DNA from: an uncultured Pelagibacteraceae bacterium
GTDB taxonomy: Bacteria; Pseudomonadota; Alphaproteobacteria; Pelagibacterales; Pelagibacteraceae
Assembly: GCA_902568465.1 (NCBI GenBank)
Contig: CACFQR010000002.1
Span: forward strand, 42,501 to 106,500
Direction: 5' to 3'
Length of the DNA: 64,000 bases
Below, piece by piece: positions 310-60,894 of this stretch; within the stretch, counting starts at the first letter, position 1; the number at the start of each line of letters is the position of its first letter. Made by a program: the position numbers and the translations under genes. A model generated the notes under the pieces. The model was not told where the DNA came from and ran no database searches. It saw only the letters and a program-made list of their open reading frames with translations.

Positions 310-810
310 ATGTGGGTAGTTGCAAAAATAAAGGCGCAAGAAATTAACATTTTTAAGAGAAAACTAGTTGAAAAATTAGGTAATGAAGTAAAATTTTACA
401 CTCCAAAAATTCAATATAATAAATATTTTAAAAGTAAAGTAAAAAAATTTGAAAAATTAATTTTAGAAAATTACGTATTTTGTCACCATGATGAATTTAA
501 AAAAATAAATACAATTGAAAAAGTAAAATTTTTAAGAGGTTTACAGTACTTTTTAAATGGTCACATTCTTAATCAAACCGAAATAGAAAATTTTATAAAT
601 TACTGCAAATCTTTTGAAAACAAAAATGGATATTTAATGCCTCTATTTTTTAAAAATGTCATTAAAACAAAGGCGCAGTTTATTACAGGCCCATTTACAA
701 ACATGATGTTTGAAATTATTGAGAGACAAAAAAACAAATTAAAAATTTTGATTGGAAATATTGTTACAACGATATCAGATAATAAAAATTATTTATATCG
801 TCCAGTTTAA
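310..810 (+). CDS. NusG/RfaH-like transcription antitermination protein
   Basis: A 166-residue two-domain NusG paralogue. The N-terminal NGN domain begins MWVVAKIKAQE, the usual NusG opening. A KOW-like C-terminal domain follows a GPF motif at residues 127-129. An in-frame ATG at 292 would add six residues, but the start at 310 is preferred because it gives the canonical NusG N-terminus and follows a GGTAGAGGT stretch. Specialised NusG paralogues (RfaH, UpxY, LoaP) load on RNA polymerase and suppress termination in long surface-polysaccharide operons. Its position before a roughly 59-kb run of same-strand sugar genes supports that role. The DNA target is unknown; the hairpin at 853-875 is a candidate. 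Confidence 0.8.
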   Translation: MWVVAKIKAQEINIFKRKLVEKLGNEVKFYTPKIQYNKYFKSKVKKFEKLILENYVFCHHDEFKKINTIEKVKFLRGLQYFLNGHILNQTEIENFINYCKSFENKNGYLMPLFFKNVIKTKAQFITGPFTNMMFEIIERQKNKLKILIGNIVTTISDNKNYLYRPV

Positions 811-852
811 AAATAAGTTAAATATGTTGCACAACGACTTAAAACTTAAAAA

Positions 853-875
853 AGTCAAAGTGCGGAGCTTTGACT
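853..875 (+). promoter_or_regulatory. 8-bp perfect hairpin, candidate ops-like recruitment site
   Basis: AGTCAAAG (853-860) and CTTTGACT (868-875) form a perfect inverted repeat around the 7-base G-rich loop TGCGGAG. There is no T-run after it, so it is not a normal intrinsic terminator. It lies in the only sizeable spacer downstream of the NusG-like gene and six bases before the first sugar gene. The GCGGAGC core resembles the GCGGTAGC of the enterobacterial ops element that recruits RfaH. That resemblance and the position are suggestive, not proof. AAGTC at 852-856 could also pair with GACTT at 836-840, giving a weaker alternative fold. Confidence 0.5.
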
Positions 876-881
876 AAATTT

Positions 882-3311: not shown

Positions 3312-3342
3312 GTTTCTCACATTCTAAAAAATTAAATTGAGC

Positions 3343-4294
3343 ATGAAACACATTTTAATCACTGGAGGCTGCGGTTATACGGGCACCTTATTAACGAATG
3401 ATTTACTTAACTCAGGAAATAAAGTTACTGTAATAGATACTCAATGGTTTGGGAACTACTTAAAGCCGAGAAGTAATTTAAATATTATAAAGTTAGACAT
3501 TAGAAACTATAACAAAATACCTTTTAAGAATGTTGATGTAGTTATTCATTTAGCAAATATTGCAAACGATCCAGGCGTTGAGCTTGATCCTAAATTATCT
3601 TGGGAGGTGAATGTAGTAGCAACACAAAAACTCATTGAAAATTCAGTAAAAAATAAAGTGAAAAAATTTATTTTTGCTAGTTCAGGCAGTGTTTACGGTA
3701 TTAAAAAAGAGAAAAAAAGTAACAGAAGACCTACCTTTAGTTCCAATATCTACTTACAATATTACAAAAATGATAGCTGAGAGAGTAATTAAAAGTTACG
3801 AAAAGAAAATTTCAATTTACTGCATTAGACCTGCAACAGTATGTGGATATTCACCAAGAATGAGATTAGACGTAAGCGTCAATATGCTAACTTTTCAAGC
3901 CTTAAAAAATAGATCAATAACTGTACATGGTGGAAAACAAATAAGACCAAATATACATATAAAAGATTTAATTAATGTATATAAATTTTTTGTTAACAAA
4001 TCAGGAATTAAATCTGGAATGTATAATGCTGGTTTTGAAAATTTGAAAATTATTGATATTGCTAAAAAAATTTCAAAAATTATTCCATCAAAAATTATTA
4101 TAAAAAAAAACAATGATCCAAGATCGTATAGACAAAACTCAGATAAACTTTTATCAACTGGTTTTAAAAAAAAATTTAATGTTTCTGATGCCATTTATGA
4201 ACTTAAGGAAATGTTTGAAAGAAAAAAAATTAAAGAATCCGACAGGTGTTACACCGTAAAATGGATGAAAAAAATAAACTTAAAAAAAATTTAA
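3343..4294 (+). pseudogene. NAD-dependent sugar epimerase, broken by a +1 frameshift
   Basis: The first frame (ATG 3343, GGCGYTG Rossmann motif, FASSGSVYG serine motif) runs off the family alignment after residue ~125 and stops at 3780. The next frame supplies the rest: EKKVTEDLPLVPISTYNITK with the YNITK Tyr-x3-Lys pair, a substrate-binding segment and a normal C-terminus to 4294. Removing one A from the A7 run at 3712-3718 fuses them into 316 residues, the normal length for an extended SDR. As written, the first fragment lacks the catalytic Tyr/Lys and the second lacks NAD binding, so neither should work. It sits between the kinase fusion and a sugar aminotransferase. Confidence 0.75.
3712..3718 (+). 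repeat. A7 homopolymer at a frame break
   Basis: Seven A's in GAGAAAAAAAGTAAC. The frame before it gives the epimerase N-terminal half and the frame after it gives the C-terminal half; six A's would restore EKKVTED in one frame. Confidence 0.6.
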
Positions 4295-59655: not shown

Positions 59656-60894
59656 TTATTTACCCACCACTTTAGGTTTTGGAAGAGGAATAATAAACTT
59701 ACCCCTGAAACCTTTTTTTCTTAAATTTTTAATAAGTTCTTTTGAAATATGCCATGACAGTAAAATGGCATATTCTGGTTTATCCTTATAAAGTTTCTTT
59801 TCAGAAACTATTGGTATGCTCGTACCTGGCATATAATTTCCAATTTTATGCGAACCTTCAACCTCACAAACACATTTAATTAATTCATCAGTTAAACCAA
59901 GATAGTGTATTAAAGTACTAGCCCTAGATGGAGCACCAATACCATAAATCTTATGATTTTTTTGATTAATTACATCAAGCAATTTATATAATCGTAATTT
60001 TGATTGGATCACATTAGCCTTAAATTTGTTAAAGCTTTTCCAATTAATAAATTTTTTTTCATAATTAATGATTTTTGATACAGATTTAAAATTTTTATAT
60101 TGACCTTTTTTTGCTGCATAAACTCTAATAGATCCACCATGTGTTGGTATTTTTTTTGCATGAAATATAGATAAACCATACTTATCAAATAAATACTTTA
60201 AGCTTTGTAAAGAGTAGTATCTTAAGTGCTCGTGATAAATTGTGTCATATTGCAACTCTTTCATTAAAGATACTAAGTAATGTGATTCTGTAATAAAAAC
60301 ACCATCCTTCTTTAAAATTCTTAAAATATTTTTCATTAAAACATGAACATTTTCAATATGAGCAAAAACATTTGTAGCCGTTATGATTTTTGCCTTGCCA
60401 AATTTTTTTAAAATATATTTCGAAGTTTTTTTATCAAAGTATTTTATTATAGTATTAATACCTCTTCTAATTGCGATTTTACCAATATTTTCTGGCGTTA
60501 CTCCCAAAACTTTATGTTTTATTTTAAAATTGCTTAATAAATTTCCATCATTAGATCCAATGTCTACAATTAAGTCATTGCGATTTAAATTTAATATATC
60601 TGAACATTCTTTATATAGTTCCTTAAAATTTTCCCTTAATATTTTTGTTGTGCTACTCGTGTAAGGATATTCCTTTGGAAACAAAATATTTTTATCCACT
60701 AAAGTATTTAACTGAACAAGTCGTGATGATTTTGAATATACCAGCTCTGCTGGAAAAAATATCGCCTCCTCTTTTTTGTTGCTAATTTTTTGAAGTTTAT
60801 TTACAGGAGGTAAAAATCCTAAAGATATAATAGTCTTAAGATCTCTAGAATTTGAGATTTGGCATTTATTTATTGTTATTGATTTTTTTTTCAT
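59656..60894 (-). CDS. Sugar C-methyltransferase lacking most zinc ligands
   Basis: A 412-residue protein with the C-methyltransferase layout: an N-terminal motif with LGFLPPVNKLQ, motif I VDIGSNDGNLL, FAHIENV, THGGSIRVYA and the C-terminal IYGIGAPSRASTLI. The zinc CxxC pairs of its relatives are CQIS (residues 11-14) and SKSS (54-57), so only one Cys remains. The start at 60894 follows the upstream stop by two bases; a longer frame to 60933 would overlap it. It is co-oriented with the broken glycosyltransferase and may form a two-gene operon. Confidence 0.82.
   Translation of the reverse strand: MKKKSITINKCQISNSRDLKTIISLGFLPPVNKLQKISNKKEEAIFFPAELVYSKSSRLVQLNTLVDKNILFPKEYPYTSSTTKILRENFKELYKECSDILNLNRNDLIVDIGSNDGNLLSNFKIKHKVLGVTPENIGKIAIRRGINTIIKYFDKKTSKYILKKFGKAKIITATNVFAHIENVHVLMKNILRILKKDGVFITESHYLVSLMKELQYDTIYHEHLRYYSLQSLKYLFDKYGLSIFHAKKIPTHGGSIRVYAAKKGQYKNFKSVSKIINYEKKFINWKSFNKFKANVIQSKLRLYKLLDVINQKNHKIYGIGAPSRASTLIHYLGLTDELIKCVCEVEGSHKIGNYMPGTSIPIVSEKKLYKDKPEYAILLSWHISKELIKNLRKKGFRGKFIIPLPKPKVVGK

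Follow-up and report, generated by a model that had tools for sequence, protein, structure and literature searches.

The window analysed here is a stretch of 64,000 nucleotides on contig C2 of G000, a Pelagibacteraceae genome of 1.01 Mb, and it opens with two regulatory genes, a 71-bp spacer between the second of these (a NusG paralogue) and the first sugar gene, and a long run of genes for surface sugars. The features on which the argument turns are as follows.

3 to 305, + strand: marR_EPS, first gene of the cassette, a MarR-family EPS-associated regulator of 100 aa (TIGR04176 in NCBIfam, 138.1 bits, exceeding the family cut-off of 88)
310 to 810, + strand: NusG paralogue of 166 aa, NGN plus beta-barrel KOW, proposed antiterminator (weak UpxY/RfaH-type profiles, AlphaFold, structure matches)
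836 to 856, + strand: upstream hairpin with arms GACTT (836-840) and AAGTC (852-856), which covary in relatives
857 to 860, + strand: AAAG linker preceding the core, its last two positions A in 99% and G in 96% (alignment of relatives)
861 to 868, + strand: ops-like core TGCGGAGC, which is ops GCGGTAGC without T6 (104 of 106 distinct loci)
871 to 872, + strand: proposed equivalent of T-1 G+1 of the consensus pause (ops T11 G12), T in 93% and G in 92% of 103 loci, in a register inferred by comparison with ops
853 to 875, + strand: 8-bp stem of the sequence-only reading, an alternative to pairing of the upstream arms, seen in 1 of 104 loci, that of this genome
882 to 1790, + strand: NAD-dependent epimerase/dehydratase, first gene of the sugar operon (PF01370, E 1.9e-61); the gene at this place varies among relatives
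882 to 59646, + strand: co-directional run of surface-sugar genes, the proposed target (61 of 63 heuristic ORFs on the + strand, first opposite gene at 59656)

Because the 16S, tRNA-Ile, tRNA-Ala and 23S genes lie upstream on the same strand and the 5S gene lies downstream (C2:122645-122759), the whole window lies inside a split rRNA operon, between 23S and 5S. It thus occupies the place of HVR2, described in HTCC1062 as a hypervariable 48-kb region of surface genes between 23S and 5S (PMC2217521), with the cassette, in the order marR_EPS, nusG paralogue and element, at the 23S end of the island. The paralogue is found downstream of the 23S gene on the same strand, 0.4-13.4 kb away, in all 10 of the relatives' loci that have both on one contig. 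Over the roughly 20 kb past the element 343 of 351 genes are co-directional (20 relatives, picked from 107 for their long contigs), compared with 108 of 167 in the first stretch past the 23S gene of genomes without a paralogue match (192 of 283 when a second stretch is added); counted per locus, 19 versus 9 with short pieces dropped, this gives p = 1.1e-4, a comparison that is confounded because islands of different kinds may be represented among the stretches without the paralogue.

A promoter scan of the window found no excess over shuffles. In the relatives the marR ORF is readable in 100 loci, and 88 of these have TGTTCAA-type palindromes just ahead of it, most of them over a sigma-70-like promoter; in L004, L102 and L144, for example, a tandem TGTTCAA-N3-TTGAAC overlaps TTTACT..16-17..TATAnT before marR_EPS. 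Judging from these motifs, palindromes and promoter are likely the MarR_EPS operator and the cassette promoter in the relatives. Within the window's gene run, the overlapping out-of-frame ORFs of one epimerase (3337-3780 and 3674-4294, region 3337-4294) and the poly-A run that precedes the late-starting gene at 1893 (1791-1893) each suggest a frameshift, real or from sequencing.

The sequence-only reading had taken the gene at 310-810 for a specialised NusG/RfaH-like factor, and the predicted fold bears this out, though the protein falls under the family profile cut-offs. Sequence searches of the PDB, whether with the paralogue itself or with its alignment, returned no NusG, and fold comparison alone revealed the relationship. 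Against profiles it reaches 13.7 bits for Pfam NusG (cut-off 22.2), 30.6 for UpxY (NF033644, cut-off 100), its top NCBIfam match, 14.8 and 19.7 for the RfaH families TIGR01955 and NF006534 (cut-offs 144.5 and 124), and 10.6 for LoaP (cut-off 125). The AlphaFold model, made with 90 aligned sequences (mean pLDDT 88.8), predicts an NGN domain and a five-stranded beta KOW domain, and both Foldseek and VIA-align group it with NusG/RfaH; its best structural match is RfaH on the ops-paused polymerase (8pen_P, Z 10.1, 97 residues, 3.2 A), and 6tqn_G is matched at Z 9.2. By this modelled NGN plus KOW fold the ORF is a member of the NusG/Spt5 superfamily. The alpha-helical autoinhibitory C-terminal domain of RfaH is absent from the model, where five strands and no helical hairpin are predicted. 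As canonical NusG is encoded on another contig (a Pfam NusG search of the genome returned the canonical copy only), the paralogue is the second factor of its genome.

Among 148 relatives the paralogue is matched at E 0.001 or better in 28, and GCGGAGC follows the gene on its 3' side in 26 of 26 full-length loci. A family-wide search matched it in 107 of 397 Pelagibacteraceae genomes, and 107 loci were examined, 106 of them distinct (L104 repeats L020), with the fragmentary paralogues in G004 and G008 excluded. TGCGGAGC lies 36-69 nt past the paralogue's stop codon in 104 of the 106 distinct loci; of the two exceptions, L125 reads ACGGAGT, in which the outer G-C has become A-T by a paired change, and L177 has the paralogue and lacks the element. 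In 103 of 107 loci a relative of marR_EPS precedes the paralogue by no more than 700 nt, and the first gene past the element varies (epimerase, NeuB-like, transporter, radical-SAM and others, as named from their translations). GTGCGGAGC occurs once in the window (shuffle mean 0.01) and once in the 1.01-Mb genome. The 11-mer AAGTGCGGAGC was found in the genomes of 31 of the 148 relatives; since all 10 inspected sites unlinked to the cassette (in 8 genomes of the order and 2 more distant ones, with G144:C89 and G142:C78 left out) fall within ORFs, its presence outside the cassette looks like chance. The conserved site after the SAR11 NusG paralogue is real and far from chance.

Three side observations concern the distribution of the cassette. 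Only 16 of 140 near-complete Pelagibacteraceae genomes have the paralogue, through either lineage bias or loss of the island from assembled genomes. Weak paralogue matches in L027, L028 and L031 have one in-frame TAA inside longer frames and are possible remnants. One genome (G031) has two cassettes (L010 and L030) on two contigs, each past a 23S end; with 8% contamination, it may represent two organisms.

The sequence-only reading had proposed an ops equivalent beside the NusG paralogue in the form of an 8-bp G-loop hairpin, and had made the conservation of that stem-loop in relatives' spacers its test. The stem exists as described, with AGTCAAAG (853-860) perfectly complementary to CTTTGACT (868-875) around the loop TGCGGAG (861-867), six bases 5' of the ATG at 882. 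As a conserved feature, however, it was lost in the comparison: the stem closing over TGCGGAG has 0-3 bp in 92 of 104 loci and at least 5 in 12, and 8 bp is found in this genome only, on which grounds we reject it as the functional hairpin. What the relatives conserve instead is the loop sequence together with C868, a second hairpin upstream (836-840/852-856), and T871 G872. The idea of an ops equivalent itself draws strong support from comparison, through the core in 104 of 106 loci, the JUMPstart/ops layout and the ops cores of other Alphaproteobacteria. On the minus strand the 8-bp stem of 853-875 runs into T-rich sequence, and a terminator scan scores it as intrinsic, which may be chance.

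The upstream hairpin terminates 1-5 nt 5' of TGCGGAGC in most loci and its arms covary. A stem of at least 5 bp is present in 95 of 103 N-free loci, and the best stem averages 7.47 bp compared with 6.21 when the 5' halves are swapped between loci (at most 6.57 in 300 trials). Loci whose 3' arms are unusual, 34 in number, behave alike, with a mean of 6.47 versus 4.96 for swapped arms and none of 1000 permutations as good. There are 77 distinct arm pairs among 104 loci, three of which lack a stem of 4, and a separate run with different settings agrees on the covariation. These arm-swap controls replaced RNAalifold because MAFFT left the variable loops out of register.

Past the core the conserved T and G stand at +10 and +11, followed by a weaker YTAAA. 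The consensus pause is G-10 Y-1 G+1, and the G of GCGG sits at -10 when counted back from the conserved T, matching that spacing. In the Rfam structure of ops/JUMPstart (RF01707) a hairpin lies directly 5' of GGGCGGUAGCGUG; the SAR11 loci likewise have a hairpin immediately 5' of the core and, by sequence, a terminal TG as at a pause site. The full core GCGGTAGC with T6 is absent from the SAR11 loci, which have GCGGAGC in 104 of 106 cases. An Rfam scan of positions 780-960 up to E 10 returned nothing credible and no JUMPstart, and RF01707 searched up to E 1 in L002, L012 and L016 gave no match, compared with 60 bits for the E. coli control. The JUMPstart leader lies between galF and rfbB in E. 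coli, and a 40-mer from it matched 2369 of 5426 E. coli genomes.

The ops element pauses polymerase at U11 and is read as DNA in E. coli; changes at G4, G5, A7 or G8 abolish recruitment, and T6, which is flipped into RfaH, can be changed to A at the cost of a roughly threefold reduction (PMC5995543). The SAR11 core retains C3, G4, G5, A7 and G8. We compared the ops-reading residues K10, H20, R23 and R73 of RfaH with the SAR11 paralogues, with column equivalence set by alignment: the K10 site is D, K or N, the H20 site is mostly D/E (K in the window), and the R73 site is R or K in 80 of 86. At the level of the alignment, the paralogue's divergence at these positions would be in keeping with the loss of T6.

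A class-wide search with the SAR11 alignment (385 genomes) gave five further candidates, four of which have TGCGGTAGC 3' of the gene, each past a hairpin recognised by eye. Among 40 distinct loci from other Alphaproteobacteria in which a MarR-type gene neighbours a NusG paralogue, an ops core lies within 150 nt downstream of the paralogue in 11 (nine with the full GCGGTAGC and two T-less) and neither form does in the remaining 29; these loci are mostly the best-scoring ones and a non-random choice among 124 genomes with a TIGR04176 match (30 loci plus 12 further positions inspected). As a control, of the 357 further ORF ends in these 40 loci only 3 are followed by an ops core. In six of seven non-SAR11 loci where marR_EPS exceeds the cut-off (L068-L070, L072, L073 and L075), the exact ops core, as GTGCGGTAGC or CTGCGGTAGC, is instead found about 40-80 nt upstream of marR_EPS. 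The T-less core TTGCGGAGCGTGCGCC past the paralogue in L082 and L088 belongs to a non-SAR11 family, which places the T-less form outside SAR11 as well.

Together, the conservation, linkage, covarying hairpin, ops layout, predicted fold and co-directional run suggest that the element at 836-872 is probably a cis-acting, ops-type pause and loading site for the locally encoded NusG-type antiterminator, and it is from these that we infer pausing, binding, recognition as DNA rather than RNA, and antitermination. Going by this anatomy, RNA polymerase transcribing marR_EPS-nusG would pause at T871/G872, an RNA hairpin would arise behind the paused enzyme in the exit channel, and the exposed non-template strand would present a small GC-GGA-GC loop. 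Freshly made paralogue from the adjoining gene could then capture both this loop and the polymerase and remain bound, and the modified polymerase would resist NusG/Rho- or terminator-dependent stops over the tens of kilobases of the sugar island. Processive elongation of this kind is proposed because of the anatomy, the long co-directional run and the known behaviour of NusG paralogues (PMC7593976, PMC7819879). A MarR-type promoter switch, suggested by the palindromes in relatives, would decide when the cassette is on. Against the loading-site reading we count the missing ops T6, the D/E (K in the window) at the H20 site, the lack of an RF01707 match, L177 without an element, and the 29 of 40 other loci without a core.

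If the signal works as RNA, the paralogue or another protein would bind the nascent stem-loop and the single strand GUGCGGAGC, and not the non-template DNA. LoaP probably works through an RNA hairpin in its leader, the covarying hairpin of the SAR11 element would form in the transcript, and the core is equally legible as RNA. However, the core retains the ops register with TG where ops pauses, and the same gene family has elsewhere the exact ops core, which is DNA-read in E. coli (PMC5995543), so that we regard recognition as RNA as unlikely.

A hairpin within a short intergenic spacer could also be an attenuator or terminator placed between the regulatory pair and the island, to be overcome by several factors of which the paralogue is one, and UpxY does work on a leader (PMC7819879). 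The hairpin here has no U-run after it, however, and a terminator scan found none on the + strand at this place, which makes such a role improbable.

GGAG is the core of a Shine-Dalgarno sequence and stands 12-13 nt 5' of the start codon in about one fifth of the loci, but the distance to the start runs from 5 to 153 nt over the 104 loci, a spread that speaks strongly against a Shine-Dalgarno role; eight near-invariant bases and a covarying hairpin go beyond a ribosome-binding site, and most of the homologous alphaproteobacterial sites are GCGGTAGC, which has no GGAG, so that a part in ribosome binding or translational control of the following gene is very improbable. Equally hard to credit is a recombination boundary, where island cassettes would be exchanged at a short conserved block, for while the genes past the element vary between genomes and the island is hypervariable (PMC2217521), the arms vary in sequence yet stay paired, which a crossover site does not need, and the core is merely 8 bp.

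Within the preferred reading of a pause and loading site, SAR11 may use a code of its own, in which an RNA pause hairpin is combined with a T-less 'mini-ops' loop and is served by a beta-type paralogue without the base-reading residues of RfaH, acting in cis only, once per genome, on a 60-80 kb island between 23S and 5S. We consider this extension possible, with chances somewhat short of even. The loading site would in any case be a concrete, testable candidate for recruitment in a dominant group of ocean bacteria and in other Alphaproteobacteria, and would give SAR11 a means of expressing the hypervariable surface island by which its cell surfaces are shaped. The literature describes the recruitment of locally encoded NusG paralogues as unknown (PMC7593976), and among open papers we found no report of an ops-like site with a NusG paralogue in SAR11 or Alphaproteobacteria.

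Several known systems share parts of this arrangement. LoaP of Bacillus is likewise a NusG paralogue adjoining a long biosynthetic operon, but the SAR11 protein lies far under the LoaP cut-off. The alphaproteobacterial RfaH-like CL4 proteins of Wang et al. 2020 are NusG paralogues encoded next to an HTH regulator and genes for the envelope (PMC7593976), as in SAR11, whereas section 11 of that paper states no recognition site for CL4; the SAR11 proteins were compared with CL4 by description. UpxY of Bacteroides capsule operons is also a locally encoded NusG paralogue heading a capsule-type operon, but it acts on a leader upstream of its own gene (PMC7819879), in contrast to SAR11, where the site is downstream of the gene.

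A close likeness is also seen with ops/JUMPstart and RfaH of E. coli. In both elements GCGG..AGC comes straight after a hairpin and a TG follows at pause distance, so that E. coli (GCGGTAGC..TG) and SAR11 share one layout, with the SAR11 core lacking T6. Both head long operons for surface polysaccharides as part of the leader, where a NusG paralogue serves them, as described for ops (PMC5995543) and proposed for SAR11. They differ in that the SAR11 TG stands one base further from AGC and that RF01707 does not recognise the SAR11 element. RfaH acts in trans on several sites, whereas the gene of the SAR11 factor adjoins a single downstream site, of which the window's genome has one copy, and the SAR11 KOW domain is predicted to be beta, with no alpha-helical hairpin. 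The shared layout points to an early origin or a wide spread of ops-type loading, and to a T6 contact that can be dispensed with or has been replaced; if SAR11 does read a code of its own, ops-type loading would be a widespread proteobacterial device rather than a late enterobacterial one.
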